A DNA stretch of 64,000 bases, from assembly GCF_032362555.1 (NCBI RefSeq), contig NC_083506.1, positions 2,093,501 through 2,157,500 of the forward strand. Reading direction: 5' to 3'. Below the pieces are notes generated by a model. It was given only the letters and a program-made list of their open reading frames with translations, did not search any database and was not told where the DNA came from. Below are positions 667 through 51,372 of the stretch, in pieces. Each line of letters begins with the position of its first letter. The stretch's first letter is position 1. The translations under genes and the position numbers were made by a program. The stretch is from Amyelois transitella (Eukaryota > Arthropoda > Insecta > Lepidoptera > Pyralidae).

Positions 667-1394
667 GAGCTGATTTCTTCCCCACGACATTAATGCGCAT
701 TGGACGTTCCCCGAGCGTTGCGTTTGGTTTCGGCAGCGGATTCAGCAGCAACATCGGCGGCATCGCGCACTCTACCGGCATCGGCTCCTCCTTCTCCACC
801 GGCGACGCCCAGGCTTACGGCTCCGGGATGGGTGGAAGCGACAACGCGTATGCCCGAGGAGTAGGCATCGCCAATGCCAGACCGTCCTACCCACGCTACC
901 CATTACCCTACAACAACGACTTTGGTCGCACATCTTTTGGATCTGCCGTCTCATCTGCCCAAAATATCGGAGATTACAGCTCGGCTGTCTCCTCGGCGCA
1001 GTCGCACAATGGCCGTCAATATGGAGCGGCAGCGTCAGCAGTTCAAAATGCTGGACCAGCGCGTTACCAATCAGCTGTGTCCTCAGCTCAAAATACGGGC
1101 CTAGATTACCAATCCGCAGTAGCTGCTGCTAATAGCAATGATGGACATTACGGATCAGCCATGTCAGCGGCTAATACTGGCAACTATGGTGATACTTTTG
1201 CCCATTCTAGAAATAATTTCGCTGGTTATGGAGCCGCTGTATCTGCTGCTGAAAATATCGGTGGATATAGAGCCAGTACAGCTCAGGCCGTTCAACAGCA
1301 AGGTGGAGCCCTTCAACAAAGTGGCGCTTCTAGCATCAACGCGCCTGGTATCCAGGCAGCCCAGTCACATGCCATGAACACTGGCTATTACTAG
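667..1394 (+). CDS. G1: secreted Ala/Ser/Gly/Gln repeat protein, last exon (5' end outside window)
   Basis: This is the 3' coding exon of a small secreted repeat protein; the exon encodes about 241 residues. It opens after a tttcacag acceptor in phase 1, the same phase as its paralogue G2 (4969-6381). No signal-peptide exon is visible between 1 and 660, so exon 1 is presumably upstream of the window. The N-terminal part carries a GFGSGFSS..HST.IGSSFSTGDA.AYG block shared with G2. The middle is a degenerate repeat of about 15-17 residues with consensus Y-x-SAVSSAQN-x-G. The C-terminus, GYRASTAQAVQQ..GIQAAQSHA, is also shared with G2. An AATAAA signal follows at 1518-1523. No enzymatic motif is present; a structural role in a secreted material is inferred from composition and neighbours. 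It converges on G1'. Confidence 0.8.
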
Positions 1395-1517
1395 ATAGAG
1401 TTTATTTTAGACTTAGTATACAATTAATATAAATTTTTAGATTACACTGACACTGAGATGACTATTGTAGTTGTACTTATCTCATTGTCTTTGTATAGAC
1501 TTAAATGAGGAGTTGTC

Positions 1518-1553
1518 AATAAAAGACTGACAGAAATATAAAATTTGTTTATT
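1518..1553. terminator. Facing poly(A) signals of G1 and G1'
   Basis: AATAAA on the + strand at 1518-1523 (for G1) and TTTATT at 1548-1553, which is AATAAA on the - strand (for G1'). Cleavage 10-30 bases past each signal would make the two mRNA 3' ends meet or overlap by a few tens of bases. Confidence 0.6.
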
Positions 1554-1601
1554 TGAAACTTAACAAAGTAATCGTAAACCTACATATCAAATTACACCTA
1601 G

Positions 1602-2398
1602 CTAAAGTGATTTGTTATCAATATTCAGAGTTTTGACATTACCATAAATATGGCCATTGTCATTAACGGCTGCCACTGTCGTGATGTGACCATTTCTTGT
1701 TAAGGTAGGATCATAGTAACCTTCCACTCCTCTCTGCCAATTCCAAGAGCTTGGATTCGTCAAGCCAATGCCCTCAAAATTGAGTGGAGCGAAGAAAAAT
1801 GGCAGTAGGAAAGGGTTGAAAGATGTAGAAGGAAATCCTCTGCCTGTATTAGCACTGGCTCCAGATATTGTACTTAATGCGGCTACACTTCTACCGTTAC
1901 TATTCTCACCATCTTTTGCTTCTGTGACAATGGAATCATCAGCATTATCCAGCTTTGGGAAGCCAAATCTCAAGTACTTCTCAACGTCTGGATTATCAGA
2001 CGAAATTGCGATGACGGCTTCTCCAGAGGGTGATGACCCTGAAATTGGGAGTAAACGTATACCTATTAATATAAATCTGCATTACTTTTTAATTCTTAAA
2101 ACTTATCGGCACTAATAATTTGTCTCGATTAAAATTGATAAGGTTTGCCAAAGTAGGTATTGCCAAAGCAGAAGCTGATTTATTACATACATATCTTATA
2201 GAACTTCTAATATTTACTGCTAATATTTTTATTAAGCAGTCACATTCATTTAATGCACTCAATTTAAGTTAAATAATAAAACCATTTTTAAAAATTATAC
2301 TCGTATTTAAAAATAACTGTACCTGACAAAAATATTGGAGTTCCTCGTATGATTGAAACTGAACATAACATAGACAATAATGTTATAGTAAAATCCAT
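1602..2398 (-). CDS. G1': small secreted protein, converging on G1
   Basis: Two coding exons on the minus strand: exon 1 2398-2323 (signal peptide beginning MDFTITLLSMLCSVS) and exon 2 2038-1602, joined in phase 1, giving about 170 aa. The phase-1 junction restores the motif SGSSPSGEAVIAISS, which matches G2' and supports the splice choice. Exon 2 holds three blocks shared with G2': the SSPSG..AV.AISS start, a TGR-F-x-STS-x-FNPFL-x-P-x-FF-x-PLNFEGIGL core, and a C-terminal AVNDNG-x-(I/V)-YGNVKT. A TATATAAG box lies at 2515-2522 and a poly(A) signal at 1548-1553, both on the minus strand. I do not recognise the family. It is a soluble-looking secreted protein with an aromatic, Pro- and Phe-rich centre, clearly paralogous to G2'. 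The function is unknown; its convergent pairing with a repeat protein is repeated at G2/G2'. Confidence 0.8.
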
Positions 2399-4968: not shown

Positions 4969-6381
4969 ATGTCAGTAAGATTAGTTGCAATTTTTGGGAT
5001 ACTGGCGGTGGCGAATGCTGTTCCAATATGGGTAATTGGTAAGTTGCATTAATCTGTTCTTATATGCTTTTGCATTAGATTCCCGTGTGAGTTTTTATTG
5101 TAAGATACAGGATTTTTATATAGATATATTATATATTTATAATAATATTTATAATACATATAATAACGATTTTATTCCCCACGGAGTAGACAGAGCCAAA
5201 AGGAATTTTCATTTGTTGTATATTACTTTATTGTATAAACAATTAAGCGGACTAAATTCTAAATGCATTATCTAACAGTCAACAAATAGAGTAAGCGTTA
5301 AATAAAATCATCGTTGTTATTATATGGTAATGTTAATAAAAATAAACTCGATTTTGAAAGAATCAAAAGTGAATTATTTAGTTTTCAGTAAGTTTCATTA
5401 TACCAACTAAACGTGGACTTTGGTCTTGTGATGACTGGTTCCGTTTACCCCTTAGGCATCTGATCTCCGCCCGAATTAACTGGGTTACTGACTCATCCCT
5501 TCCTGGATCGTGGTCGCAGATTGATAAAACTGCAAACTAGAAGCATACTGCTAAAGTAGAGTCTGATGTCTATTTTTTGTGTACATAGCCGAGGTGGAAT
5601 TGGAACCTCTATGTTTTGTGTTGATGTTGTGATTTGTATCCCGAGGTAGTCAGATACAGTCTTTCTGTATAGTATTATTTAAAGGAAACTTATACATTTT
5701 CTACTTCCACCAGCTCCAAAAAACGACCCCAGCTTTGGTCAAGCGCCCAATGTGGCGTACGGCTTCGGTAGCGGCTTTAGCAGCGACGTGGCCGGAGTCA
5801 AGCACTCCACCAGCATCGGATCATCCTTCTCCACCGGCGACGCGTCCGCTTACGGCGAAGGCCTCGCCAACACTGGGAATAACTACGCAAGAGGAGTAGG
5901 CGCTGCCAACAACTACTACCAACCTACAAATCAATTGAGGCACTCTTTCCCCGCGTCCTCGTCACTAGCCCAAGCGTACAATAGCCCTCAATTCGGCTCA
6001 GCGATTTCCAACGTTCAGAATACACCTCCTTACCAACCCCAGTACCACGGCTACCGAGCCGCTATCACAAACACAGTGGACAATGGCCAGTACCAAACTG
6101 CTTTATCTTCAGCCCAAAACGTGCAAGGTCAAGATTACGAATCCGCCGTTTCCGCGACCCAGCAAGGTCTGGGTTACAACTCGGCTATTTCTAACGCTCA
6201 GTCAGTGAATGGTGGTGGCTTGCGTTCAGCCACTGCCGCTTCTCAAGACGTGAACGGCTACAAAGCCAGTACAGCTCATGCTGTCCAGCAAAATGGTGCG
6301 TCTCTTCAGAACAGCGGAGCTACTACCATCAATGGCCCAGGCATTCAAGCCGCGCAGTCACACGCAATTAGTTATTATTAA
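4969..6381 (+). CDS. G2: secreted Ala/Ser/Gly/Gln repeat protein
   Basis: Two coding exons, 4969-5038 and 5714-6381, joined in phase 1, giving about 245 aa. Exon 1 encodes a signal peptide (MSVRLVAIFGILAVANA) plus a few residues; the donor is G|GTAAGT. Exon 2 follows a cttccaccag acceptor and reads APKNDPSFGQAP, then the GFGSGFSS..STSIGSSFSTGDASAYG block shared with G1. The middle repeats a degenerate SAVS-x-AQ unit with Tyr and Asn, and the end GYKASTAHAVQQ..GIQAAQSHA matches G1. TATA lies at 4877 and AATAAA at 6725-6730. It is a complete paralogue of G1. Composition and signal peptide suggest a secreted structural protein, though no known domain is visible. Intron 1 contains a tiny SINE-A scrap. 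It converges on G2'. Confidence 0.85.
5172..5202 (-). repeat. SINE-A scrap in G2 intron 1
   Basis: About 30 bases (ATTCCCCACGGAGTAGACAG..) match the tail-proximal part of SINE-A on the minus strand. Confidence 0.5.
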
Positions 6382-6802: not shown

Positions 6803-7905
6803 CTAGTTATTCTTAGGTCTACTGTTATACCTGATGGTTTTCACATTGCCATACACGCGACCGTTATCGTTCACAGCTGATACCGCACTAATCGCGCCCG
6901 GTCCCGAAAAACTTGCCTCTGGAAAACTCTCGAATCCTTTGAATAAATTCATTGGTTCAAAATTGCCCAATCCGATGCCTTCGAAATTCAAAGGGTTGAA
7001 AAATAGAGGGGATAGGAATGGGTTGAACGCTGAAGTGGAAACAAAACTACGGCCTGTGCCGGCCGCGGCTTGCCCAGGGGAAGCGATGCTGAACGATTTT
7101 CTAATAACTCCTGGATTTCTGTTTGAGACGGTTCTTTGATTAATAGTTACTCTGGGATTCCCGTTTGATATCACCCTTTGGTTCATAGACTTGGGGAACT
7201 TAGATGAGATGTATTGAAGGACTGCTGGGTCATTGGACGATATTGCTACCACTGCATTTCCGGAAGGCGACGACCCTGAAATATCATATTTAATCACTTA
7301 TTTCAAATCAGGCAACATGGGTCATTACAGTCATATTTACAATTTCAGTATGTACCAGATAAAAATTTTCTGATTTCTCTTGGAACTGAAAATGTAAATA
7401 AATAAACTTTAAGACATAATTTAAAAAGTAAACAATTAGAATAAATCAATACTTATTATTTTAACTTTAAAGTTAGGTAGATGCAATACAATTTAGGATA
7501 AAATCGTTTAAGACGAGATAATTTATTTGATCCTTTATTAAATACTGAGCCGGTCGAGGCTATTTATATTTAAGGAAAGAAACAAAAAAATCGGAATAAT
7601 ATATTATTTAGATTTTAGATTTTTTTAATCTCAGCTTATGCTGGTAACCTAATAACCATTACGGCCGTCAACCAAGTAAATGATACATAATTTATTCTGT
7701 ATGTTGTAAGTCAGTCGGTCCGTTTTCGTCAATTTGAAAAAACTTTCTAATTAACCGACATGTATTTATTTATATATATTTTTATTATTATAAGTAACAA
7801 AGATGACCCACAAAACCATATAAAGTACCAACCTTTCAAAACGACAGGGATGGCCTGTACATTGCAGAAAATCGCTATAAACACGACCACATTCAGCGAA
7901 CTCAT
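6803..7905 (-). CDS. G2': small secreted protein, converging on G2
   Basis: Minus-strand exons 7905-7833 and 7275-6803, joined in phase 1, giving about 181 aa. Exon 1 encodes a signal peptide (MSSLNVVVFIAIFCNVQA). Exon 2 begins with SGSSPSGNAVVAISS, as in G1'. The middle has an Asn/Arg-rich segment (NPRVTINQRTVSNRNPGV) absent from G1'. After it come the shared STSAFNPFL..FFNPLNFEGIGL core and the end AVNDNGRVYGNVKT. TATATAAA lies upstream at 7976-7983. The 24-codon signal exon and phase-1 junction match the rest of the cluster. The family is not recognised. The Asn-rich insert is the main difference from G1', so the duplicates have diverged in the middle and kept both ends. Confidence 0.8.
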
Positions 7906-11698: not shown

Positions 11699-12687
11699 AT
11701 GAGGTCTTTTTCAACTATTATGTCATTGTATTATATAGTTACGATTGCATTCGCTGGTAGAACAAGTAAGTGCATTTTAAAACCAGTTATATATACTCGT
11801 ATACACACATATATATATATATATAATTGGTGGTTTGTTAAAAAAAATATTATCAACATTCAGTTACCTTACTTTTGACAATTTCATTTGAATACTGTTG
11901 AACTAACTATATATACCAAACCTTTGTTTTCTGTCAAAAAATTTGACTAAATTTTAGCAGTAATAGAACATGGAGCTAATAAACGAAGAATAAGTACTTA
12001 CACAAAGTTTCAATTAAAAGTAAAAGGATTTACCATCTCTCTCTTCTTTAGTCTAACTTAGTCTTAATGTAAGAGAGAGTGTTAGTGTGTTCTTGATTAT
12101 CAGCTGCATAATTTTAAGTTCAGAGCGATTAATTTGCCACAATTTTTACCACACCTCATATTTTTTATAACTGGAAGATTTATAACAATTTCGACCTTAC
12201 AGATGACCACAGAAAGATAGATCGTCGAGATATCCCACAGTCACCTAACAAGATAATAGGCGTCGCAAGCATTGCCGGTATCACAAACAGAAATGGAAGA
12301 GTTTCTTCCCTCACTGGGATAAAACTAATCCCCGGGATAGATTCCCCAGATTTAATAACCCGAGATACATCACCATTCTTGTATCCACTGACAGTAACTA
12401 AAGAATTCGGGGACAAATACGCATCAGGAACGATCCAGGTTTACCCAGGGTCTGTCATGGTATCCTCGACTGCAGGTTCAGGGTATAAACCAGATTGGAA
12501 GTGGCCGAAGATCAATATGCCGTTGGATGATGTTTTCTTACCTCATCTAGATGTGTTTGACGACCCAAGGAGCTTAGATCCGTGGTTCCCGAAGGATGTA
12601 TTCAAGGCTGCGCCACCACCAAATTTTAATGTACCAGCGAGCTGGATGTTTCCTCATTTTAATCCGTTTTTAAACCTTTGGCGTTAA
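11699..12687 (+). CDS. G3: secreted protein of unknown family
   Basis: Exons 11699-11765 and 12203-12687, joined in phase 1 (donor A|GTAAGT, acceptor cttacag), giving about 183 aa. Exon 1 encodes a signal peptide (MRSFSTIMSLYYIVTIAFAG). Exon 2 starts with a charged DHRKIDRRDIPQ segment, then GVASIAGITNRNGRVSSLTG, a Pro/Asp/Lys/Trp-rich stretch (KPDWKWPKINMPLDD) and a C-terminus FPHFNPFLNLWR. The NRNGRV and FNPFL motifs echo the VNDNGRVYGNV and FNPFL motifs of G1' and G2', so this may be a distant relative on the opposite strand; that link is weak. There are no cysteine patterns or catalytic motifs. The shared gene structure places it in the cluster. Confidence 0.75.
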
Positions 12688-12843: not shown

Positions 12844-12881
12844 TCAAGTTTAGTAAGAATAAGGATTCTTACTAAACTTGA
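12844..12881. repeat. Perfect 17-bp inverted repeat
   Basis: Arms TCAAGTTTAGTAAGAAT (12844-12860) and its exact complement (12865-12881) with a 4-base loop. It lies about 150 bases past the G3 stop, so a transcript extending this far would carry the hairpin. Confidence 0.8.
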
Positions 12882-13951: not shown

Positions 13952-16632
13952 ATGCGTGTGTCACTTTTTTTGTTGCTCGCCACAGCCACATTTGTTGCGT
14001 GCCACGCCGCGCCACAGCGACAGTCGGGTTTGCAAACCGGCCACACTGGTAAGTCTTAATTAATTTTCTTGACTGTCGATTGAAGTACAGCCATTTTGAG
14101 GTCAAGTACGTGATGAGTTGGTCGTGTGTTTGAATAAAATTTATTAAATAACTTCTCAACTCAACATACATACATATAGTCTATATCCCTTGCGGGGTAG
14201 ACAGAGCTAGAAGTCTCGAAAAGACTGAAAGGCCACGTTCAGCAATGTATGACTCAATCTTTTAAATTTCATTTATTTTCTTTTTATTTATTTATAACTG
14301 TTGAATGTTAACTTTGTTTACTATTTAACTCAATGTTCTATCAAAGCGAACAAAACTCATATAAATACAAACATATAGTCACGCCTATATCCTTTGCGGC
14401 CAACAGTCTTAAAAACTAAAACGTTTAACATAATAAAATTAGAAAACGGAAAACTGGTTATAAGTATAAAAACCTAAATACCATTTGTGGAATCTTAATA
14501 TAGCCCTGTAATTACTTGAACTAAGGCAATTGACATGTTACTTATAACTCGTGTACAGTCAACAACAAAACATTCATTAGAAAGCGTTTTATTTTTATTT
14601 TACATTTAATAACATCTCGCCTAAGACTGTTTGACAGCAAAATAATTTCGCAAAAAATTTTAATATTTGCAAAACATATACCTACAAATTCAAGGTCAGT
14701 AATTCCTTATGCGTAGAGAAAAACATTGTATTAAAAAAACATTGTAGTGAGTCACACGTTACCACATAACCTATTGTTTTACAAAAATGGCCTGGAAATG
14801 ACCTATCATACATAGTGTAAAATCGCTGCCAGACACTTAGTGTTGAGATTTATGGTGTTTGACCTAAAAAAAGGAGTTGCTTATCAAGTTGATGCCATAT
14901 TAATTGATCCTGTATACAAACATACATATTATCTATTTAAAATATTGAAAGGCCACCTTCAACTGTATGGCTTAATGGTGGAATTGAGATTCAAATAGTG
15001 ACAGGTTGCTAGCACATCGTCTACAAAACGAATATAATCCTATCCCTTAGTTGCTTACAACATCTATAAGAAAGCTATGAAGTGGTGCTCCTATTCTAAT
15101 ATGCCACACCACACGGCGATTCTATATACCTTGTTATTAACCAGAGTTCCATAGTTAAATTATCTCAAAGATTTATAGTTTATTCTTTACAAACAAAAAC
15201 ACAAAAGCAGTTTTACAGAAAAGATAAAATTATGAGAACAAAAGTTTAAAAAAATCTTTAAATATTCTTGCCTAAAAGCGTATAAAAAATGTGAAAACTT
15301 ATCGTTTCAGATTAATCTCTGACTGTACAGATAACATCACTCAATTCGCCTCTGTACAGATCCAAAAAAATTTTTTTTTTAATTTGCAAAATAGCGTAAA
15401 AAAGTTATTATTCCAGATAACAATACTGACCACCAAGAAACCTGTCTTTTATCGTAAACTTGGCGATCCGCCATTAATTCTAACTTAAAATAAATTGAAT
15501 AACGGTGCTTTAAGTGGACACTAAACAGGTCCAAGGCAGTTTGTGTATGAAATTAAGTTATTGCTTTTTTTGGTCTAGCTTTTACACTAGTTTAGTTTTA
15601 AATTTTTGAACAATCACATCGAGGTTCAAATATTAAATAGCAAGATTTGATTTGCACTTTACTCTTTTTTGAATGGAACTCGTGGGCTTCTTTCAGACAT
15701 TTTCTCTCCTCTTTTTCCGATCTTTCTTTACCTCGCTTATCATCTTTCGTCTTCGGCCTGCCACTTCTACCAGGGCCGACGGAGGTTGTATAGCCAGAAA
15801 TTTGTTCTCCAGTTCCATATTTGAATAATTTTATTAAGAATTTTAACTCCAGTTTAAATTTTCAGTGTGGTTCCCGGGATCAATAGAAAAATAATAGGAT
15901 CACGCAAAATAATAGGACCACTCTATTTCTTTTCCATGGCTGACGTAAAAGGAGACTTTTAGGCGATGGGCTAGCAATCTGTCACTACTTGAATCTCAAT
16001 TCTATCATTAAGCCCAACAGCTGAACGTGGCCTTTTAGTCTTTTGACGACTGTTGGCTCTGTCTTCCCCGCAAGGGATATAGACGTAAGTGTCAGATAGG
16101 TAGATAATTAGAAGTCAAGTTGAAATTTAAATACAGAACAAAACAAGTCATACGAGTATTTAAACATACATTTGAGACCATATGACTGCAATTAAACCTC
16201 AATGACAACGAGCAATGCCTTGTGGCGCAGCGGTAGTGCGCTTGTCTGTAACACCGAAGGGTCCGGGTTCGAATCCCGGCCAGGGCATGATGAGAAACGA
16301 ACTTTCTCCGATTGGCCTGGGTCTTGGATGTTTATCTATATAAGTATTTATTATAAAATATAGTATCGTTGAGTTAGTATCTCGTAACACAAGTCTCGAA
16401 CTTACATCGAGGTTAACTCAATCTGTGTTATCTGTCCCGTATGTATTTATTTATAATGTTATCACTTCCAGAAGGCGACAGCATACCATTCATAGAGGAG
16501 GTGGTTGTGGAGTCCACTCTTCACGTGAAGAGTCCCACAGCTGGACGGCAAGCCCGCACCAACACAAAGACCAGCCTTCAAGATGGTGCGCGAGTGTCCG
16601 AGATGAAGCCTAAATATGTTAATTATTCATAG
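13952..16632 (+). CDS. G4: small secreted protein, about 85 aa
   Basis: Exons 13952-14048 and 16472-16632, joined in phase 1 over a 2.4-kb intron (donor G|GTAAGT, acceptor tatcacttccag). The start MRVSLFLLLATATFVACHA is a clear signal peptide, followed by APQRQSGLQTGHT. Exon 2 reads EGDSIPFIEEVVVESTLHV and ends ..MKPKYVNYS. AATAAA follows at once at 16633-16638. The mature protein would be about 65 residues, with an acidic/hydrophobic patch, Lys/Arg/Thr-rich middle and no cysteines. It is not glycine-rich and no family is recognised, but it keeps the cluster's signal-exon and phase-1 layout. The intron is full of SINE-A pieces, and a tRNA-derived SINE ends just before the exon 2 acceptor. An extra small exon in the intron cannot be excluded. 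Confidence 0.7.
14164..14255 (-). repeat. SINE-A, tail half, in G4 intron
   Basis: (CATA)n tail, then ATATCCCTTGCGGGGTAGAC and the following ~50 bases. The head is missing. Confidence 0.7.
14367..14415 (-). repeat. SINE-A scrap in G4 intron
   Basis: ACATATAGTCACGCCTATAT..GCGGCCAACAGTCTTAA is a short internally deleted tail piece. Confidence 0.55.
14918..15117 (-). repeat. SINE-A, diverged, in G4 intron
   Basis: Reads GGCCACCTTCAACTG..GACAGGTTGCTAGCACATCG..CACACCACACGGC. It is clearly related but older than most copies. Confidence 0.65.
15868..16085 (+). repeat. SINE-A with partly repeated head, in G4 intron
   Basis: Starts at GTGTGGTTCCCGGGATCAAT. AATAATAGGA(T/C)CAC occurs twice, then a shortened middle and an end CCGCAAGGGATATAGACGTAA without a (TATG)n tail. 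Confidence 0.75.
16216..16450 (+). repeat. SINE-B, tRNA-derived, in G4 intron
   Basis: The ~72-base head is tRNA-like, with an A-box region TGGCGCAGCGGTAGTGCG and B-box GGTTCGAATCC. The body runs TATAAGTATTTATTATAAAA..GAGTTAGTATCTCG and ends TCTGTCCCGTATGTATTTATT. The exon 2 acceptor of G4 lies only ~20 bases beyond. Confidence 0.85.
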
Positions 16633-21571: not shown

Positions 21572-21638
21572 TTAACTGGCGTTCGTCTCGATTTTGACTT
21601 ATAGATAATAAGTCAAAATCGAGACGAACGCCAGTTAA
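21572..21638. repeat. Perfect 31-bp inverted repeat (foldback)
   Basis: Arms 21572-21602 and 21608-21638 are exact reverse complements around the loop AGATA. The arms begin TTAACTGGCGTTCGTCTCG. The transcribed form would be an uninterrupted 31-bp hairpin. Confidence 0.9.
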
Positions 21639-26061: not shown

Positions 26062-27467
26062 ATGATGAAGTATTTGGTCCTAATTTGCGTGTTGTGGTTA
26101 GCCGAGGCGTACCCGACTTATCCTTATTATGGGACAGATTTGGATACATGTAAGTTATTTTTAAAATATTTGGTATAGATGTAGAAGGAAGGAATAGTTA
26201 TTTTTAAGACTAAGAGTTACGAACATCAGGAAAAAGCATAATTAAATACAATACTTTTAGTTATTCTTAAAAAATTACGAAAGATGGCTAAGGGATTATA
26301 TTTTACTGTAATTTAATTGTAAATTATTAATTTAATGTCAAAATTCTTTATAATTTCCATAATTTTTGAAATCGTTTATACCTATTTTCCTAAGTTTTTT
26401 ATAATAGCTTATGCACCATGGCGAAAATCAGCGCCTTAGGTCGCGGGCGGCTTATTTTTGACGAATCATCATGAGCGGATCATATCAACCAGATACATTA
26501 TGAAGCTGCAAAAAATAAAGATTTTGTTTGAGAGGACTATATTCTATTTTTCACGTCAATGATAGTTAAATAAATCTTGTATCAAATTCTTTAGAATCAC
26601 ATCTTTTTATTATAATTTTTATTGTTTCGCTTATTGTTGGTCTTGTTAATTATTTAAACAAAGGCCTAAAATTCCATGATATTGAACGTTTGCTTTCTTA
26701 TCATTAAAAAAAATACTAGATTTGATATTCTATTGTAATGAAATACAATTGGACAATATTCATCGGCTGGTGTAAAAAATATTATAAGAGAATTTTGTTT
26801 AGAGAACAGGTATTTTATTTATAAAATTGTTACAGTGTCTTATGGATCAAGTGACAGCTCCCGAGGCGGCATGGTCCTCAGCCGATACTACAACCCCTAC
26901 TACAACCCTCGGGCAGTAGGCGGTGGCATGGCAGCATTCATGTTCAGACAACCCGAGGAGAACCAACCGCCCTCCAGCCAGTACTACTACCCCGACAGGC
27001 GCAGACAGGTTCAACCAGAGATCAACTACCCTCCACCACAACAGAACGAAGTATTCTTTCCACAGGTCCCAGAAAAACCAATCGTAACTGAAGCGACAGA
27101 AATCGCTGATCCAACTGAGAAGACAGAACTATTTTCCACGACACTAAGGTCTACTAGTCCTGAAATATTTGAGCCTGAAATCGACGATGAAGAGGTAGTA
27201 CCGAAGCCTAAAAAGAGGGTGTCGAAGAAGAAACAAGTTAAAAGACCTGTAGACGATGAAGACGAGGAAGAAAATCAGCCAAAGATGCCTGCCGGGGCGT
27301 ATTTCCCTATGTTCTTTGGGTGGGGAGGCAGGTCTGCTGGGAGTCCGGGAGGAGCTACTGCAATAGCCAACGCTTACAGCACGGGTCGAGGAGGAGTGGC
27401 CACCAGCCACGCAACAGCATACGGGGTGCCCCAACGACCAGAACTGAGAGAGAAGTTACAGCAGTAG
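26062..27467 (+). CDS. G5: secreted Pro/Thr/Lys-Glu-rich protein with Ala/Gly tail
   Basis: Exons 26062-26149 and 26836-27467, joined in phase 1, giving about 239 aa. The signal peptide begins MMKYLVLICVLWLAEA; an alternative Met is the second codon. The mature protein opens with Tyr/Pro-rich YPTYPYYG, then RYYNPYYNPRAVGGG. A Pro/Gln/Tyr segment follows, then a Thr/Glu region with probable O-glycosylation sites, then a strongly charged block (EPEIDDEEVVPKPKKRVSKK and DDEDEEEN). It ends with AYFPMFFGWGG and an Ala/Gly/Ser/Thr motif GGATAIANAYSTGRGG. That last motif resembles the IGSSFSTGDA-x-AYG block of G1 and G2, so these genes may share ancestry. AATAAA occurs at 27975-27980, implying a ~500-base 3' UTR. 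The domain family is not recognised; a secreted matrix protein is inferred. Confidence 0.8.
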
Positions 27468-37037: not shown

Positions 37038-39356
37038 ATGGCGCGGCTGGTGGTTGCCGCTTCGGTCCTAGGACTCCTGGCCTACTCTCATGCAGCTCCA
37101 GGTATAATTATATTTTTATTGCATTCGCACTTGTTAAGTTATCATTGGCTTAACAGTTTAAGACCGTTGGCTCTTTCTAACCCGTAAAGGATGAATGCGT
37201 ATGATAATAACAAAGCGATATGATAAATTGCCAGGGTCAAGATGCTAAGGAGATCTCTTACGTACACTCCTAAGTACACTTTCAGTAAAGGAAATATATT
37301 TTTTGCTTCTGTTATTTGTTATACATACATACATATGGTCACGTCTATATCCCTTGTGGGGTAGACAGAGCCAACAGTCTTGAAAAGACTGAAAGACCTC
37401 GTTCAGCTATTTAGCTTAATGAGATTCAAATAGAGACAGGTTGCTAGCCCATCGCCAAAAAAAAGAATCCCAAGTTTGTAAGCTTATCCCTTAGTCGCCT
37501 TTTACGACATCGTCCCATTCTTTTTTGTATTGGTGCCGGGAAGCACATGGCACAGTTATAAAAGTAAAATGTATATTTCAGGTTATGGAGGTGGAAGCCT
37601 CGGTGGTGGAGGCGGTGGGGGCGGTGGATTTGGCGGAGGCGGCGGTGGAGGTTTCGGAGGAGGCGGCGGTTTCGGCGGAGGCGGCGGCAAAGGGGGCGGC
37701 GGTGGCCTAGGTGGGGGTCTAGGCGGTGGACACGGCGGCGGACTTGGAGGCGGATCTGGAGGCGGTTTAGGCGGCGGTGGTGGATTAGGCGGCGGCCATG
37801 GGGGCAGTGGTGGTCTTGGAGGCGGAGGCGGAGGCGGATTAGGCGGCGGCCATGGAGGCGGTGGAGGACTTGGAGGCGGACTTGGAGGCGGCCATGGCGG
37901 CAGTGGCGGATTAGGCGGAGGCCACGGGGGCGGCGGTGGCTTAGGCGGAGGCGGCGGACTTGGTGGCGGTGGTAAGCATTAAAAAGTATGATTACCGTCA
38001 AACTTTCTGGATAGGTTGTGAATCACTACATAGTACTTATAAAACAAAGCCGCTATTTTAGTCTGTTTGTCTGTATGCTTAAATCTTTAAAATTACGCAA
38101 CGGATTTTGATGCGGTTTTTTGTAACATGTAGAGTGATTCAAGAGGAAGGTTTTTATGTAGAATTTTTTCCGAATTTTGCACCCGTGCGAAGCTGGGACG
38201 GGTCGCTAGTTGTATATAAAACATTTAGATACTGAAAAAATATTGTCGACCCCTTTTGGATTTCTTCCTATGGATATTGAGGAGGAGACTTTAGAATAAT
38301 ATTAAAAACCAGGACAACAATCAGGGACAATGTAAAATAATTGCCAAATCTTCATACAGGGTGTAAATTTCGACAATGAGAGATACCTAAACTAATAAAT
38401 ATTTTTAGCCCTAGTATTGATTTTGTGGCTAAGCAACTATCTATCCTTGTCACCTTTTTTAATTTTATTCGTATACGCGAAGTCTATTTTAAAAGTTTAT
38501 TTTTAATGTATTTAATTTCGTTCAGGCGGCGGTGGTCTGGGCGGCGGCGGCAGTGGCGGATATGGCGGACATGGCGGCCATGGGGGCGGCGGGCACGGCG
38601 GCAGTGGCGGCTTCAGCAGCGCTAACTCGCAGGCCAGCGCCAGCGCTAGCGCCAGCGCCGGCGCAGGTGGCGGCTATAAGAGCGGATACGGGTAACAATA
38701 TCAATCATTCCTAACAATTTTAGTAAATTCCAATCAATTTAATTTAATCCGTGCCGTGTGGTTCCCAGCACCAATAGAAAAAGTAATAGGACCACTGCAT
38801 CACTTTCCCATGGATGTAATGAAAGGCGACTAAGGAAAAGTCTTGTAAACTTGGGATTCTTCTTTTAGGCGATGGGCTAGCAACCAGTCGCTATTTGATT
38901 CTCAATCCTATCATTAAGCCATACAGCTGAACATGGCCTATCAGTGCCTGAATCATTATTCCATAAATTTAGCTATTCAGTCAAACGTGACCTCCTATTG
39001 TCTGTCTACCCATAAGAATAAAGACGAGATATCTTTCTTATGTATGTAAAGTTTACCAAAACAATACAAACCGACGAACTTTCATGAAAAGTTGAAAAGA
39101 TAAACCATAACAGTACCTAGATGTTATGGTAGTCTCATTCTATGCCAAATTTCTTCGCAATCAGTCGAAATTATTTAAATCTTTTAATGCAATACGTTAT
39201 GATTAGGGAGATGATTTCTTTTCTTAATAAATATAACTATCAATAATACTAAATAAATAATTCATAATCAAGTAATTATTTATTGTTATTGTTGTTACAG
39301 GCGGTGAAGAAGTCAACGGAATGAAGAATAATGAATATTCCAGAAGCTCAATGTGA
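37038..39356 (+). CDS. G7: glycine-rich secreted protein with two candidate last exons
   Basis: Exon 1 37038-37101 (signal peptide MARLVVAASVLGLLAYSHAA) joins exon 2 37582-37971 in phase 1; exon 2 is about 130 residues of GGGF, GGGLGGG and GGHGGSGG repeats. Two in-phase continuations exist. Exon 3a, 38526-38695, adds more Gly/His repeat and an Ala/Ser tail (SSANSQASASASASASA) ending SGYG, for about 207 aa. Exon 3b, 39301-39356, adds GGEEVNGMKNNEYSRSSM, for about 169 aa, with AATAAA at 39360-39365 directly after. Exon 3a cannot splice in frame into 3b, so they look like alternative ends. The donor after exon 2 (G|GTAAGC) is strong; reading through it would give a stop within three codons. The role is presumably structural, as for G6. 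Introns carry SINE-A copies and a Helitron-like piece. Confidence 0.75.
37323..37553 (-). repeat. SINE-A in G7 intron 1
   Basis: Near full-length minus-strand copy with an intact (CATA)n tail. It ends at GTGCCGGGAAGCACATGGC, about 30 bases before the exon 2 acceptor. Confidence 0.8.
38043..38209 (+). mobile_element. Helitron-like 3' fragment in G7 intron 2
   Basis: Ends GTGCGAAGCTGGGACGGGTC then GCTAG before a T, another Helitron-like terminus. The body (TACGCAACGGATTTTGATGC) differs from the copies at 18.4, 19.7 and 62.1 kb, so this is a different subfamily. Confidence 0.45.
38751..39047 (+). repeat. SINE-A between G7 exons 3a and 3b
   Basis: Head GTGCCGTGTGGTTCCCAGCA to AAAGACGAGATATC..TATGTATG, with extra sequence in the region before the tail. 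It separates the two alternative last exons. Confidence 0.75.
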
Positions 39357-41277: not shown

Positions 41278-44200
41278 ATGGCACGGTTTGCAGTAGCCGC
41301 TTTAGTCCTAGGGCTCCTTGGGTGCTCTTCAGTAACAGGTATTATGCAACTTCATTGGGAAACACCAGGAAATTCGCAACACATTTCGCATATCTGTTTC
41401 GAATGTTTTTAAATAAAACATACAATATTCTGTGACGAAATATGTCAAGTGGAAAAACTCAGGAAGAGTAAAGTTCCCGTGTCTCTTACATAAATATCTT
41501 ATAAGGCAATGCATGTTTCTTAACTAGATTAAAGCGTTGCGAAAATTCAATTGTTGAAAAAACGTGACCCGTTGGTAACTATTTTAGACTGTGGCGAGGT
41601 GAAAGACGATATTTTACATATCATCAGTAATGGAGTTACTGTTTATCAAAATGAGATGCCTTGGCACACTGGCATTTATTTGAAGACGACGACTCCGTAC
41701 AAGCAAATCTGTGGAGGGTCTATAGTGAGACCCAGCATCGTCATATCAGGTGAGATAAACGTTCTCTCTTCTCTTTTGCAAAAAGTAGTAAGGCACGCAT
41801 CTTATGAGTCGAATTTAGGAGTAGGAAAACATAGTGACTTTCAAGTAACTGAATTCCAGAAGATTAACAGAGTCAAACGACAATCGCTCCTCGTTATAAC
41901 CGAAATTTTGAATCTCCTAAAAAGGAATTTTCCTATGATCATAAAAATCGATCATAAGAGGACTTCTTTCTAGAGATTCTGAGACGGAATGAAATTCTGA
42001 TATGTTCTCAAAGATATCTTAAGCGAGCATGGTCCAGACGAGCAATAGTATTCAATATAACAGAGGCTGTTTCATTCAGCCGCTCATTGCTTCTGGAGCG
42101 ACAACAAAGGGGTGTTACCAGCCAACAATTACGCTGTGGCAGCGGGCAACATCTACCGACCCTGGAACGACCCTCAGAATAACTCTCAGAAGGCTGACGT
42201 GAGTTTACTTATTAATTAAAATATACATAAAACAAAGCGCTTTGCAACCAAATTGGGACGACATCTGGGAGCGCTGGGGTGCCCCCGCCATGACTAGCCA
42301 AGTCAAGCGCAATGCCACAACCGTACTTTTTCTCGAAAGGATTCGCCTTTTTTAACTTTCATTACTTTTACATATTTTACAAAGTTAATCCTAAATGCAT
42401 AGCTGATACTCATTTATCAAGTTTTAACATATTGGTATCTGAATGATTACATGTAACTATTTAGAAAAATTAAATTTTACTTAGATTATTCTTGAACTTT
42501 TTAAGTAATACTTGAGTTAAATAAATCTAGCACGACTATGTACATTAACGTGGCTGTTCACTTCTCAGCCTCTATTATTAGTTTGTAAGTTTATTATTTT
42601 AATCGGTACGAGTATCTACATACTATGTATGTGCCTAGTTGGTTTAACTAAAATAATAAATAGGCTCCAACTCCAACGTCAAAACTAACTTCTAACAATG
42701 TTATTTTTATTATTATAATTCATTGTTGTATTTCAAATTACGAGTACGTACGAGTTTATTGGCACATTCCATGATAAACAAACGTAATATTGTTGACACA
42801 TCATTTTCCCTTCAGGTGGAATCAATCAATATCCCTGATCGCTACCGCGGCGTCGCCACTAATTATATGGAAGACTTGGCCGTTCTTGTGTTGTCGAAGT
42901 CCTTCGATTATGCGCCAAATGTTTCACCAATCACCCTCGATTTTAATGAGAATTTGGACCGACTTCAGCTAACCCCTGGTAATATGGGAAAGGTAATTTA
43001 TGAACACGGCGGAAAGTTTCAAAAGGAATTTCTATATACGAATTGTGTGATCCTTCCATAAATTCTTCCCAATGAAACTTTCCAAAGAAATCTGGATCAA
43101 AAAAATTAATCAAATATTTTATGTTATTTTTTCGCACATCCCATAAGAATAAAACTTATAGGTAGGTATTAAGTAGTTTATATTTCACACACACACATAC
43201 TTAAGACTGCCAATAATGGAATTAGTAAGATACTATCATTCTCGAAAAAGTACTTCCGAGGGATTTTACCGATATCCGGTGAAAACTTATATCGTATATA
43301 AGTTTTCACCGGATATCGGTAAAAGCAAGTTGGACGATGTACATACATACATACATACATAAAATCACGCCTCTTTCCCGGAGGGGTAGGCAGAGACTAC
43401 CTCTTTCCACTTGCCACGATCTCTGCATACTTCTTTCGCTTCGTCCACATTCATAACTCTCTTCATTCAAGCTCGGCGGTTTCGGGTACTTTTGACCTGA
43501 CCCTTTACCAGGACGTCCTTAATTTGATCAAGATACGTTCGTCTAGGTCTTCCCACTCCGACCTTTCCCTCCACACTCTCCTTGTATATCTGCTTAGTCA
43601 ACCTGCTTTCATTCATCCTCTCCACATGACCGAACCATCTTAACATACCCTTTTCTATTCCTGTAACTACATCTTCTTTCACATCACAACATTCCCTTAT
43701 CACGCTGTTCCTTATCCTGTCACTCAATTTCACACCCATCATACTCCTTAACGCTCTCATTTCCACTGCATTTATTCTGCTTTCATGCTTCTTTTGCCAT
43801 ACCCAACTTTCACTCCCATACATTAATGTCGGGACCAACACGCCCCTGTGCACAGCCAGTCGAGCCTTTTTGGATAGTTTCTGACTGCTCATAAAGGCAT
43901 GCAAAGCTCCATTCACCATGTTCCCCGCGTTCACTCTCCTTTCAATATCACTATCATACTTGCCATCTGATGTAAACTTTGATCCTAGATATACAAACTC
44001 TTTCACTTGCTCCACTTTTTCTCCTCCAATCAAAATATTACATGCTGTCATTTCTTTCTCCATTTCAAAAACCAGTGTTTTAGTTTTACTTACGTTCACT
44101 TTCATTCCTTTCTCTTTTAAAGCTTCATGCATACAGTTTACCATCTCCTGTAACTCCTCCGCTGATGACGCCAGTATAACCTGATCGTCGGCATAGAGCA

Positions 44201-47145
44201 GACATTTGACGAGTAACTCATTCATCCTTAATCCACTTTTAGACTCTTTCAAATCTGTCAAACAGCTATCCATAAATAGGTTGAACAGCCACGGTGACGC
44301 AACACATCCTTGCCTAACGCCTTTCTCAATCTTAAACCACTCAGTGTGCGCTCCGTTTATCCTGACACAAGCACTCGAATCCTCATATAAGGATTTCAGT
44401 GCTCGTATTAAGAGACTGCTCACCCCATGCATAGAAAGTGCTGACCACAATTCATTCCTCTCAACTCTGTCATAGGCCTTTTCCAGATCTATGAAAGTGC
44501 AATAGACTTTTTGACTCTTGGCCAAAAACTTTTCGGCTATGCACCGCAAGGAAAAGACCTGATCAGTACATCCCATTCCCTTTCGAAATCCCGCTTGAGC
44601 ATCCCATATTTTGTCATCAGTTTCATTCCTGACTCTATTAATCAATACCTTAGCATACAATTTGCCGACGACGCTAAGCAGGCTTATACCACGATAATTT
44701 TTGCAGTCCAGCTGTGACCCTTTTCCTTTGTAAAGTGGCACGATAACAGCCTTACACCAATCTTTTGGTACTCGGCCGCTTCTCCAACACAAATTGAAAA
44801 GGCAGTACAACTGACTAGCTACTACGCCTTTTCCTGCTTTAAGCATCTCGACCGACACTCTATCACACCCAGCAGCCTTTCCCGCTTTCATACTCTTAAG
44901 TGCTTCCACAATTTCGAACATTTCAATTTCGCCTTCCATCTCATTCTCTTTTTCTTCGCTATAGCAGAAATCTTTCTTATTTCCTTCCTTTTTTTCAAAT
45001 AAACTTTCAAAATAGTCCTTCCATATCTTAAGTACACATTCTTCTCCTTTCACAACGCTACCATCCTGGCATCTGATCCTAGTCAGCTCTCTGGTTATAG
45101 TCTTTCCTCGGGCTGACCTTACGGATTTCCAGAATACTTTCAGATTTGACTGAAAGTCTTCTGATAGCCTTTTATCAAAATCCTCTTTATACTCTTCTTT
45201 CTTTCTAATCACAGCTTTCTTAACCAAATCTTTCATTTTCTTATATTCCTTACGTGCTTCATTCACATCTTCATCTATAACCTCTTGCATTCTTAAGTTA
45301 GCTTTTGCTGCTAACAAATCCAGCCATGCTTTCTTCTTTAATCGCACAAGTTCTTGCACATCTTTACTCATCCACGCATTTTTGTGATTTTTCCTTTCCT
45401 TCTTCTACTTACACCACACACTTCAACAGCTACTTTCACAATTCTTTCTTTAAATTCCTTCCATCCATCTTCAATATCGCTCATTTCCTCTAAATCTTCA
45501 AATTCATCCTTCAGTCTATTAATATACTTCTTACCTACATCCATATCTTGCAAATTTTCTACTTTTACTCTTTCCAAAGCGCTGGTTTGCTCCCTTACCC
45601 TGTGCCGCCAGCGATTGAAGATACCCCTTATCCGGGATATCACCAGTAAATGGTCCGAGTCAATGCCAGCACCGCGATATGCACGGGTATCCAGCACTTT
45701 GTTCTTCAATCTTTCATCTACAATCACAAAGTCTATCATACTTTCTAAAATACCTTCCACTCTTGTGTAGGTGTGGATCTCTTTATGTTGAAACATTGAG
45801 TTCGACACAAAAAGATCCCACTCTAGACAAATTTCTAATACACTTCTTCCATTATCATTCACCTTTTCGTCACCAAACGCACCAAGCACCTTTTCATATC
45901 CATCACGCTTTACACCCACCCATCCATTAAAATCACCTAACATAATATAACGATACCTACACATATATAACGATGTACCTATATATATATATATATATAT
46001 AGTATATACATGTATATATATGATGTATATAAATATACATCGTCCAGCTTGATATATATATTCTTGGAAATAAGACCAGAAGTGATTTTTTTAAAAAGAC
46101 AATTTTAATAACCTAAAGGAATTAAACAATTTCTTACAAAACAAGTTAATTTTAAAACTACCCGACCAAATTACTATGCTTCTTACAAAGCGATTGAACA
46201 ACCAAAATAACTATTTCTCGATCAAATTAAACATAACTCATTAATCAACGACAAAACTAAAGAATTGACAAAATAAAACAATAACGCAACGTATTAAATT
46301 CTAAATTTAAATGGACAGAGTAACGACCGCGCGGGACGAGTGTTGCTCAGCGACTGCGTGCGGAGCAGACGATGCGTCCCCTTTTATAGTTACTTTTGGT
46401 TTCTTATCCAATAATATATATTTTGTTATTTTGGCCAACAACAAATGTTTGCAACAAGTCACCAATTTATCTTTCAGATCGTCGGTTGGGGTCTAACCGG
46501 GAGCAATGGACCCGCGTCACAGGTCCTCAAACAAGTGCAGCTGCCCATCGTCTCTTTCAAGCAGTGCTTCGACGATTCACCTCCCAGCTTCCGTCCGTTT
46601 ATCGGCTGCGATAAATTCTGTGCGGGGTATACAGATAGTGGTAAGTTTGTAACATAGTAGAGGTATTTGGTTTTAGTGCAAGATAAAAAAAATCCTAAAC
46701 ATGTTACTTGTTCTTGGGAGAGAAATAAATGCTTATGATTATTATATTGGTATACAAATGTGTATCTTTCCAAAAATGTGCATATCTCACTTGAGAGGCA
46801 ATCACGGGGCCAAGCCAATATGAAGAGGTTCTTTTGTACCTTTGGTTCTAAACTGAGATAATGATATGGAGATCTATCCGCTGATGTACGAAAGGGATGG
46901 ACCAACCCACAGTCTGCCAAATTATTATTATAATATTATCATTTGCAGACATCGCGGTGTGCAGGGGCGACAGCGGCGGCGGGCTCGTGGTGGGCATTGA
47001 GGAAAATGGTGAAATCCACTACTATTTTCGCGGCGTGGCGTCCACAGCAGCTTCGGATGATAATCTGTGCAACGTCAATTCATTCTCAACGTTCACTCAT
47101 TTGCAGAAACATGAGTCTTTTATCAAAGAGTACTTAAAAGATTGA
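41278..47145 (+). CDS. Secreted S1-family serine protease, like the catalytic domain of modular serine protease/HP14
   Basis: Six coding exons: 41278-41338, 41588-41749, 42080-42198, 42816-42992, 46478-46640 and 46949-47145. They join in frame to about 292 aa. Exon 1 is a signal peptide (MARFAVAALVLGLLG). The chymotrypsin-fold triad is complete: His77 in VISAAHC, Asp134 in MEDLAVLVL and Ser236 in CRGDSGGG. The S1-pocket base position is Ala, not Asp, so trypsin-like specificity is unlikely. A CGE motif near residue 23 and ISNGVTV around residue 33 mark the likely short propeptide and activation site. By recall the catalytic half resembles insect modular serine protease/HP14 (ICGGSIV, YRPWN, NMGK-IVGWGL). 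The LDL-receptor and sushi modules of those initiators are absent. AATAAA is at 47154. Intron 4 (3.5 kb) hosts an RTE LINE. A silk- or cuticle-processing role would be inference from position only. Confidence 0.85.
43264..43324. repeat. Perfect 29-bp inverted repeat in protease intron 4
   Basis: Arms 43264-43292 and 43296-43324 are exact reverse complements around a CGT loop. The arms begin TTTTACCGATATCCGG. It lies 10 bases from the target duplication of the LINE. Confidence 0.9.
43343..45969 (-). mobile_element. RTE-clade LINE, 5'-truncated, one frameshift
   Basis: A 2.6-kb minus-strand insertion flanked by ACGATGTAC at 43334-43342 and 45970-45978. The 5' open frame (45964-45368) is the C-terminal half of an apurinic-like endonuclease (MLGDFNGWVG; later IDSDHLLV with the catalytic His). 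A one-base shift in an A-run near 45390 separates it from a 634-aa frame (45371-43467). That frame has reverse transcriptase motifs: VPLYKGKG..NYRGISLLS, FIDLEKAYD (292-301), GVRQGC (351-356) and the YADD box (393-396). The C-terminus RWFGHVERM..GRPRRTYLDQIK is typical of this lepidopteran RTE. The 3' end is GAGGCGTGATTTTATG plus (TATG)n. Most of the endonuclease and the 5' UTR are missing, so it is inactive. Confidence 0.9.
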
Positions 47146-48683: not shown

Positions 48684-49843
48684 ATGGCGAAGTTTGTGTC
48701 GACCGTGGCTCTCTTGGCTTTGTTAGCCATCAGTATCTCTGCTATTCCTGGTAAGGCTTTTGGAGGTTTTAAGTTTACAGGATTCGTATTGTTTGTGTGT
48801 GTGAATAGGACCACTCCATCTCTTTCCCATGGATGTGGTAAAAGGTGACTAAGGGATAGGCTTATAAGCTTGGGGTTCTTCTTTAAGGCGACGGGCTAGC
48901 AACCTGTCACTTTATATGAATCTCAATTCTATCATCAAGTACATTAGTGAGACTATTGGCTCTGTCTACCCCGCAAGGGATTTCGACGTGATTATATGTA
49001 TGTATGTATGCGTTTCTAACAAATAACAGAACTACATACTATGTTTTTTTCTCCGCTTCCATACCTACCAGCATGGAAACACTGGAATAAATATATTAAA
49101 TCTTAATCTCTACATAACGATAATTAAGAAATAAATAACAGAGAGGAAAACGATAGTATTAAATTTTGTACATTGTATTTCCCAAATTACTGCCAATAAG
49201 TTTAAATAATTATAATTAACAATGTGACCATGTGTACTTCCAGGAAAGAGGACAAGACGCGGCTTTAACAATAGCGGGTATAATAGCGGAGGCGGGTACG
49301 GTAGCGGGGGCGAGTACGGGCGCGGCAGTGACGAGCGAGACACCAGTAGCCAGGAGGGTAATGGATGCAGCAGCGAAAATGGCAGGAGGTAATTTTCACT
49401 ACCTCTTATATTAGAGAATTCCTTTCTTGTGGATTATTGGAAAATACAGGCAAAACAAGCCAGATTTATCCAGGTCATAGATAGAGACATCCCTTAGAAA
49501 CGTTGCCCAATCATCAGATTGAGCTTACAATTCTTTCTCACAGTAATATAATTAGGTACTACCCACTTTCAAGAGCTGAACATTAAGAAAGTAATAAGTA
49601 TATGCGCTTAGCGAGACGGAAAAATCTATATTTATTTTTATTATGAAACCTATCAGAATTGTTCATTAAATTAATTTAAGAGAAAGAGTTAAAATTGGTT
49701 CCAGCCGAGAATACGCCTACAACCGAGATGGCCGACAATTCAACGAGAACAGCCGTGGAACTCGATCCTTCGCCAAGGCGTCCGCCTCAGCTGCCGCTTC
49801 CGCGTATAACATAAACAGTGGCTCAAAAAATCTTTTAGCATAA
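48684..49843 (+). CDS. G8: small Gly/Ser/Asn-rich secreted protein
   Basis: Three exons: 48684-48750, 49244-49388 and 49705-49843, giving about 116 aa. Exon 1 is a signal peptide (MAKFVSTVALLALLAISISA) ending in phase 1. Exon 2 (KRTRRGFNNSGYNSGGGYG..) ends in phase 2 and exon 3 continues it (SREYAYNRDGRQFNENSRG). The mature N-terminus is preceded by a basic KRTRR site that could be a furin-type cleavage point. The protein ends with FAKASASAAASAYN, an Ala/Ser tail like those of G6, G7 and G9. One cysteine is present in exon 2. AATAAA occurs at 49864-49869. A SINE-A sits in intron 1. Simple ORF scanning misses this gene because each exon is short. A structural or matrix role is inferred. Confidence 0.8.
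48806..49012 (+). repeat. SINE-A without head, in G8 intron 1
   Basis: GAATAGGACCACTCCATCTC to GGGATTTCGACGTGATTATA plus (TATG)n, with a deletion before the tail region. Confidence 0.8.
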
Positions 49844-50580
49844 TTGGCAGTTCATTATCTTCGTAATAAATGGTTTGATTGCTGGGAAGTTTAAGGCGAA
49901 GAATGATGTTGATCTTATATACAATATACGTAAATTAATTAATTTTGAATTGAATTTATTTATTTGAGTTTGATTTGATAAATTTACGTTACGGATATTA
50001 GTTTTTTTAATACTTAATTATATGATAATGTTACGGTCATACCCACTAATTTACCTTTGGGGATACATATTTTTTAGTTTAGTTAAAATAAGTATGTTTT
50101 TAATTTAGTTAGTAGGTATAATAATAAAATAATAAATTAACTATTGTTATCAACTGTAAACTTATAATAAAAGTTCTTTGCAATGTGTGTGTGTCGTTCT
50201 TCATGTCGAATCGTAAGAATATAATTCTTAGAGTGTCTTTATAGATAAGTAAAAAAAAGCATTGATTGTGGACAGTTTATTAAAGTAAATAATTAACATT
50301 ACTTAAATTAATCTAATGTGCACATAAATTATTTAAAATATCACATTATAATACATCGGATAGCGCACTCTCAGTAGATAATTCTTATAAAATAAATTTC
50401 GTGTGTAAGATATCTGAAACAAGAAGAAAGTTTTATATACCTTCAGAAAAAATATTATAATAACACACAACGTTAACGTTTCGTTAATGTTTTAACGGCT
50501 TATTTTTGTGGTTTTGATTTGATTGATTTGACACTAATAGGATATAATTATTTTTTTATTTAAAATGCAGTTTTAAAATG

Positions 50581-50850
50581 TACCGTGTGGTTCCGGGCAC
50601 CAAAACAAAAAAGAATAGGACCACTCCATCTCTTTCCCATGGTTGTCGTTAAAGGCGACTAAGGGATAGGCTTATAAAATTGCGATCCTTTTTTTAGGCG
50701 ATGGGCTAGCAGCCTGTCACTATTTGGATCTCAATTCCATCATCAAGCCGAGCAGCTGAACGTGGCTATTCGGCGGCGGCGGTGGCAGGACTGTTGGCTC
50801 TGTCTACCCCGTAAGGGATATAGACGTGACTATATGTATGTATGTATGTT
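50581..50850 (+). repeat. SINE-A with a GC-rich internal change
   Basis: Full-length copy from ACCGTGTGGTTCCGGGCAC to (TATG)n. The usual TCTTTTCAAGACTG segment is replaced by CGGCGGCGGCGGTGGCAGGA. Confidence 0.8.
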
Positions 50851-50958
50851 TTAAAATAAATAAGTAGTGCTCCTACTGGAATGGTGCTGAATCAGGACAG
50901 AACTCCGCTGCATACCTTATTTATTTTTAAATTTGATGTTATTTTAAAAATGACTTAC

Positions 50959-51372
50959 TTATTTACGGCCAACCGCTCCCCCCACCGATGAGGAGCTAGC
51001 ACTAGCCGTGGACTTGGAGAACGATTGCGCCGCGCCGCCCGGGAAGTGGGGCGCCCCGAAGCCCTGCCCCCCCGGCACGTAGCCCAGGCTGCTGCCGCCG
51101 CCGCCACCACCACCGCCCCCGCCGAATCCGCCGCCAAGGCCTCCCTCATAGTGCCGCCTTGCCCTTTCTCCTAAACCAAGAAAATATTAAAAAAGAAATT
51201 AAAAGTAAGTACAATTTTCAGCAGGCTCTTTTTATGAGTGTTGAGAAGAACGGTTAACCACAACACAGTTTCATGAATTTCAAATTGCTTAGTTAAAATT
51301 TAAATTACCTGGCGCGGCAAAAGTGGCGACCACCAGAGCAGCTAACAGAACGAACACCACCTGTCGAGCCAT
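50959..51372 (-). CDS. G9: small glycine-rich secreted protein
   Basis: Minus-strand exons 51372-51309 and 51170-50959, joined in phase 1 (donor G|GTAATT, acceptor tttag), giving about 91 aa. Exon 1 is a signal peptide (MARQVVFVLLAALVVATFAA) resembling the MAR-start of G7 and the protease. Exon 2 begins ERARRHYEGG, a basic start like those of G6 and G8. It continues with a run of about ten glycines, SSLGYVPGGQGFGAPHFPGG and an Ala/Ser tail AQSFSKSTASASSSS. A TATAAATT box is at 51423-51430 (minus) and AATAAA at 50920-50925 (minus). The open frame visible in another phase here (starting near 51149) is a shadow. It is convergent with G8. Confidence 0.8.

Follow-up and report, generated by a model that had tools for sequence, protein, structure and literature searches.

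The locus described here lies on contig C2 (13.8 Mb) of the Amyelois transitella genome (327 Mb, 33 contigs), and the window referred to throughout is the 64,000-nucleotide stretch C2:2093501-2157500. Models based on splice sites and open frames define a cluster of about 68 kb, from -16535 to 51372 in window coordinates, which comprises 16 genes: 15 predicted secreted non-protease genes and one serine protease gene (SP). Eleven of the non-protease genes (G1-G9, G11 and G12; the numbering skips G10) lie in or reach into the window (Table 1) while four others (u1-u4) are located just upstream of it, at -16535 to -2285. All gene models are predictions from GT/AG splice sites and open frames, built with an earlier claim about intron phase known, and signal peptides were judged by their hydrophobic core and not by SignalP. 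A preliminary description of this DNA had proposed ten genes over about 50 kb, every complete one with a signal-peptide first exon followed by a phase-1 intron. All ten, taken here as G1, G2, G3, G4, G5, G7, G8, G9, G11 and G12, assemble with GT/AG sites, and the cluster is real but larger than proposed, as u1-u4, G6, SP and the third exons of G9 and G11 had been missed.

The locus is strongly enriched in open frames rich in glycine, alanine and serine (GAS). Counting both strands, antisense frames included, 17 frames of at least 60 residues with a GAS fraction of at least 0.38 are present in the 69-kb cluster and none in 115 kb of flanking DNA. The same is seen at other thresholds (23 vs 2 at 0.33, 21 vs 0 at 0.35 and 13 vs 0 at 0.42), and this gathering is not due to chance. 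The Gly/Ala/Ser-rich make-up initially ascribed to the whole set applies to many members but not to all: GAS content of the mature proteins, with cleavage sites set by eye, ranges from 19% (G5) to 81% (G9) and Gly content from 5% (u3) to 70% (G9). u2, which has a repeat body, contains 26% Gly and 23% Ser. Alternating Ser/Ala/Ile/Val runs exceed those of shuffled sequences in six of the 16 proteins (u1, u3, G8, G9, G11 and G12; p ≤0.008 each, uncorrected), with u4 at p 0.04 (uncorrected). In the six proteins, the runs are located C-terminally as read from the sequences, and such tails would suit short beta-strands. A Pfam scan of the 15 non-protease proteins, with G8 entered as an N-terminal fragment, returned no family above cut-off. 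This includes the R&R chitin-binding domain and Chorion_1 (PF01723), each found in none of the 15, and the only sub-threshold match in the R&R test was DUF3602 for G7. A structure prediction for G4 exon 2 together with G2 reached a predicted local distance difference test score (pLDDT) of 33 and was not used; a fold search of the PDB with this model gave no match at E ≤0.001 and carries no meaning at such a score.

In all 16 genes, the predicted first exon encodes a signal peptide, is 61-97 nt long and ends at a phase-1 intron, and a scan blind to phase recovers seven of them (G3, G4, G6, G7, G8, G11 and G12) with phase-1 donors only. A strict TATA[AT]A element is found within 125 nt of the ATG in 13 of 16 genes; background windows contain it in 22% of cases (binomial p 9e-7). 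A TATA box had been reported for every complete gene; nine of the original ten carry a strict one, at -40 to -124, but G5 has only TATAAG, and the strict element is also absent at u1 and G6. TATA followed 20-38 nt further on by an initiator-like word occurs in 6/16 genes and in 3% of the background. No shared promoter 7-mer is convincing: the best by p is present in 4/16 promoters, and another is found in 7/16 where 1.4 are expected (uncorrected). The uniform phase had been put forward as an argument for duplication. It is weak evidence of shared origin because phase-1 introns are in excess around signal-peptide cleavage sites in animal genes generally, according to the accessible part of PMC1626468. 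The same text reports frequent phase-0 introns near codons 4-5 in arthropod cuticle genes. This CPR-type arrangement was not found, all 16 predicted exon-1 introns being in phase 1 and located after the whole signal peptide. Elsewhere in the same genome, five predicted chorion signal exons from four loci (exon-2 junctions unchecked) terminate within the signal peptide at phase 0, and the predicted signal exon of the P25 silk gene ends in phase 1. The phase-1 template sets the cluster apart from chorion and typical R&R genes and is, taken alone, no mark of common descent.

Growth by duplication, proposed earlier for the entire set, is seen for a part of it. The matches between G1+G2 and G3+G4 are collinear: those over exon 2 are strong for either gene of the pair (E 2e-24, 7e-9 and 1e-6), those over the promoter and the first exon weak (E 0.02 and 0.008). 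G1 and G3 are identical at 108 of 217 aligned residues, with a proportion of nonsynonymous differences (pN) of 0.35 compared with 0.73 for synonymous differences (pS), and G2 and G4 at 66 of 144 (pN 0.39 vs pS 0.82). Genome searches with G1 and G3 returned no relative beyond each other, and those with G2 and G4 no further copy among scored candidates. On these alignments, the predicted G1/G2 and G3/G4 genes are shown to be one convergent pair duplicated as a block. The C-terminal stretches of u2 and u3 align with a score of 44 compared with a maximum of 33 in 500 codon shuffles (rows for G9 and G11, whose ends were off frame, were not counted), and a genome search with the 40-residue u2 tail returned u2 itself and a weak match to u3 (E 0.009), and nothing else. 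Their tails show these two predicted proteins to be an older related pair. Among all 120 pairs of first exons, just G1/G3 and G9/SP exceed all 1000 codon shuffles. The next pairs, u2/G1, u3/G7 and G9/G12, are reached by 7, 11 and 35 of 1000 shuffles, and none stands after 120 tests. Part of G8, used as a genome query, found only itself. The comparisons show a cluster that has not visibly grown from a single repeated template and instead reveal separate events. Signal-exon reuse, previously suggested as general, is seen once between unrelated bodies, in G9 and SP, while the 118 pairs other than G9/SP and G1/G3 stay below the all-shuffle mark.

SP is a chymotrypsin-fold serine protease (Pfam Trypsin, E 3e-32) encoded by six exons in an intact frame of 292 residues. 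The triad motifs AAHC, DLAV and GDSGG are in place, which makes a catalytically active enzyme plausible. The closest relative found is a ModSP/HP14-like gene on the minus strand of contig C27 (C27:4930113-4935000); three other weak genome matches are located on C19, C24 and C13 (28-32% identity). SP and the C27 gene are identical at 168 of 270 residues (pN 0.237 vs pS 0.878). Their first four protease-domain exons are equal in length (162, 119, 177 and 163 nt) and therefore point to a copy made at the DNA level, introns included. ModSP/HP14 proteins are described as initiators of the melanization cascade that bear LDLa and Sushi modules (PMC7215089, PMC10036332, as far as these texts are accessible). 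LDLa exons, recognized by eye, likewise precede the protease exons of the C27 gene, and both of the two that were scanned matched Pfam Ldl_recept_a. As in SP, the protease part of this gene starts with a phase-1-compatible acceptor. In SP, only 249 bp separate exon 1 from the protease exons, and LDLa and Sushi modules are therefore absent. SP consequently resembles the ModSP-like gene of this genome in its protease-domain exon structure and its intact triad residues but differs from it in lacking LDLa modules and in having a signal exon akin to the one in Gly-rich G9 nearby. As a separate observation, the ModSP-like gene contains a truncated second copy of its first protease-domain exon (L042, C27:4934851-4935027), just upstream of the intact one.

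The first exons of SP and G9, two genes 4.2 kb apart, are identical at 38 of the first 51 nt. Their alignment score of 50 compares with a maximum of 31 in 1000 codon shuffles, of 27 among 96 pairings of cluster exons with P25 and chorion exons, and of 38 among 15 control-control pairs. In a two-strand scan of 184 kb, the 5' pieces of SP and G9 are reciprocal best matches with a score of 60, the next best scoring 32 for SP and 38 for G9, the latter at G12. Sequence comparison in this way shows that SP and G9, whose bodies are unrelated, carry a homologous signal exon, the one true case of first-exon reuse at the locus. The tie between the two exons is probably younger than the split between SP and the C27 gene because synonymous sites of the latter pair are saturated while SP and G9 still agree at 38/51. 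This would fit an exchange or a conversion event within the cluster, whichever way it ran. It is also conceivable, if rather doubtful, that the protease had SP exon 1 all along, as its original signal exon, and that G9 borrowed it: two sequences cannot show direction and exon 1 of the C27 gene was not found, but saturation of SP/C27 synonymous sites (pS 0.88) beside the well-preserved SP/G9 exon speaks against it. A SINE-like (short interspersed nuclear element) dispersed repeat of roughly 270 bp is present in the first introns of G9, G11 and u3 and at many other sites; it could aid exon exchange via recombination.

Taken together, we assign a probability of about 0.6 to the reading that this locus encodes a secreted structural matrix, with SP carrying a G9-type signal exon. 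The broad sense given to the locus in the preliminary description, a group of genes that together encode a secreted composite material, is plausible. In such a matrix, the Gly-rich bodies would form flexible loops, the alternating Ser/Ala tails of u1, u3, G8, G9, G11 and G12 would give beta-strand contacts, and tyrosine residues would be cross-linked. SP would be expressed together with the matrix genes and act in or on the matrix. A further and much more tentative step, which we consider unlikely as a whole, is that exon shuffling brought the catalytic domain of an immune cascade initiator into the structural cluster: ModSP protease exons would have come to lie beside G9 and acquired a first exon of the G9 type, possibly along with the promoter, and the resulting enzyme, devoid of pathogen-sensing modules, would now work for the matrix, for instance through activation of phenoloxidase, so that Tyr/Gly-rich proteins are cross-linked in place. 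If the matrix reading is true, the locus documents the expansion of a secreted composite through duplication of a block, through low-complexity genes that differ in make-up and through a signal exon that unrelated genes share via a phase-1 intron, and it would tie a melanization-type protease to the production of extracellular material. The chimeric SP gene is a concrete case that is checkable and datable across Lepidoptera. A literature search, to which this statement is confined, found no description of this cluster, nor of an LDLa-less ModSP beside Gly-rich genes.

The likeliest material, at what we regard as roughly even odds and by analogy, is a cuticle of CPG/CPH type, perhaps of specialised appendages. 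Cuticle is favoured over silk, with low weight, because the definition of CPG proteins covers G8 and G9, G9 resembles the Bombyx mori protein Fmxg10C13 and the tyrosines of CPG1 are reportedly cross-linked. The definition, multiple GGYGG or GGxGG repeats, is that given in the available text of PMC10138643. GGxGG occurs 52 times in G8, 31 times in G9, four times in u2, twice in G12, once in u1 and in none of the other ten proteins (G11 in its two-exon form), which brings two of the 15 genes and not the cluster as a whole under the definition. B. mori CPG1 contains GGY repeats whose tyrosines are reportedly cross-linked by tyrosinase (PMC2542385, accessible part). Mature G9, in the model used, has a mass of 13.7 kDa, 69.5% Gly and a pI of 9.3, with 12.2-13.8 kDa over the five possible exon-2 donors (37903 to 37972). 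Fmxg10C13 (AB839178), the product of a gene on chromosome 5, has 13.7 kDa, 71.4% Gly and a pI of 9.77 and, according to the available portion of PMC4171585, is expressed in mouthparts and antenna and in no internal organ tested, silk gland and ovary included. Cluster proteins and the B. mori CPG proteins or Fmxg10C13 have in common a signal peptide, GGxGG repeats, high Gly content and often a basic pI. They differ in that many GGxGG repeats occur only in G8 and G9, most cluster members having none, and Fmxg10C13 is likened by make-up and not by sequence.

A number of observations weigh against the matrix reading and its cuticular form. Five members, G2, G4, G5, G6 and G7, are not low-complexity. 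The resemblance of G9 to Fmxg10C13 is one of composition only, a lead and not a test, Fmxg10C13 itself not being proven cuticular, and it depends on the donor chosen and on the three-exon model: the alternative two-exon reading, ending at 37982, gives 9.6 kDa. With regard to SP, neither exon 1 nor a Sushi exon was found for the C27 gene. In the 56 kb around that gene, the SP 5' piece scores at most 36, slightly above the next-best 32 of the 184-kb scan, though this match is on the other strand and its position appears unrelated. Searched against the whole genome at the DNA level, the 5' pieces of SP and G9 matched nowhere but at their own positions; this says little about other copies because even the SP/G9 match was missed. 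Promoter homology of G9 and SP, suggested by a joint alignment, was dropped since the 60 nt upstream alone score 16, which is not significant; a captured promoter is therefore unsupported. The top pairs in this upstream test are u1/G7 (0/1000 shuffles) and G5/SP (1/1000). Exon sharing between G9 and G12, with a score of 47 reached by 0/500 dinucleotide shuffles, was likewise dropped, the score being reached in 35/1000 codon shuffles.

Among other explanations, a silk-gland locus producing minor silk or silk-coating proteins, with SP as a silk-conditioning enzyme, fares best and is still somewhat unlikely. Pyralidae carry clustered sericin, seroin and zonadhesin genes (PMC9745057, accessible text), which share with this locus the grouping of repetitive secreted genes and local duplication. 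In this genome, the signal exon of the silk gene P25 is likewise predicted to end in phase 1, and the Gly and Ser content and the repeat body of u2 would fit. However, cluster bodies are built of Gly/Ala and not of Ser-rich repeats, and the C-terminal CXC-type motif of Sericin 1, as described in the accessible part of PMC9684489, was not seen by eye in the predicted proteins, u2 having CSTC (CxxC) instead. In addition, the fibroin P25 family (PF07294) is located on another contig, C28, and Fmxg10C13, the silkworm protein nearest to G9 in make-up among those considered, is not expressed in silk gland in the available text of its report. That unrelated, rapidly evolving genes came together by chance and do not function jointly, their anatomy being only the usual animal pattern for secreted genes, seems improbable. 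Such a gathering would be in line with the general phase-1 excess at cleavage sites, with the 118 first-exon pairs that fall short of all codon shuffles and with the lack of a promoter word that stands out clearly as shared, but it is opposed by the concentration of GAS-rich frames in the cluster, by local duplications whose relatives were found only at this locus and by the Ser/Ala tails of six members. An eggshell (chorion) locus can be dismissed as very improbable: genes for small, Gly-rich secreted proteins that lie on both strands and have an intron early on may resemble the organisation of chorion loci, but the 16 Chorion_1 matches reported among the best-scored genome candidates lie on C28 (15) and C8 (1) with none on C2, none of the 15 non-protease cluster proteins scanned (G8 as a fragment) matched that family and the predicted chorion intron differs in phase and position.

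Table 1. Predicted genes and one mobile element in the window (window coordinates; exons in order of transcription).
Feature	Position	Strand	Description
G1 exon 2	667..1394	+	Ala/Gly/Ser/Gln-rich repeats; exon 1 at -358..-289, outside window; paralogue of G3
G2	1602..2398	-	exons 2398-2323, 2038-1602; convergent to G1; paralogue of G4
G3	4969..6381	+	exons 4969-5038, 5714-6381; paralogue of G1
G4	6803..7905	-	exons 7905-7833, 7275-6803; paralogue of G2
G5	11699..12687	+	exons 11699-11765, 12203-12687; not Gly-rich; no Pfam match; TATAAG only
G6	13952..16632	+	exons 13952-14048, 16472-16632; 85-aa secreted peptide; no strict TATA; weakest model
G7	26065..27467	+	exons 26065-26149, 26836-27467; Pro/Glu/Tyr-rich body, C-terminal part Gly/Ala
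G8	30634..32492	+	exons 30634-30694, 31144-32492; 57% Gly; 52 GGxGG; alternating Ser/Ala tail
G9	37038..38695	+	exons 37038-37101, 37582-37968, 38526-38695; ~70% Gly; 31 GGxGG; alternating Ser/Ala tail
SP serine protease	41278..47145	+	exons 41278-41338, 41588-41749, 42080-42198, 42816-42992, 46478-46640, 46949-47145
LINE-type (long interspersed nuclear element) retrotransposon in SP intron 4	43467..46090	-	reverse-transcriptase-like ORFs (open reading frames), assigned by eye
G11	48684..49843	+	exons 48684-48750, 49244-49388, 49705-49843; second junction one choice among several; Ser/Ala C-terminal tract
G12	50959..51372	-	exons 51372-51309, 51170-50959; Gly-rich, Ser/Ala tail

The cluster is bordered by mobile elements on both sides. 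Downstream, these are followed by genes for an OATP transporter, a deoxynucleoside kinase and a thioredoxin-domain protein similar to protein disulfide isomerase (PDI-like), while a short-chain dehydrogenase gene lies beyond the mobile elements upstream. Named by eye, the downstream elements include a mariner-type transposase at 53051-54238, in two adjoining open frames with a stop between them, LINE-type reverse-transcriptase open frames at 54786-55347 and, outside the window at 66446-71914 in its coordinates, a long open frame resembling a Bel/Pao-type retrotransposon. Perfect palindromes are present at 21572-21638, 43264-43324, 12844-12881 and 54300-54336, with arms of 31, 29, 17 and 16 bp, respectively; their loops measure 3-5 bp and their sequences are mutually unrelated by eye.

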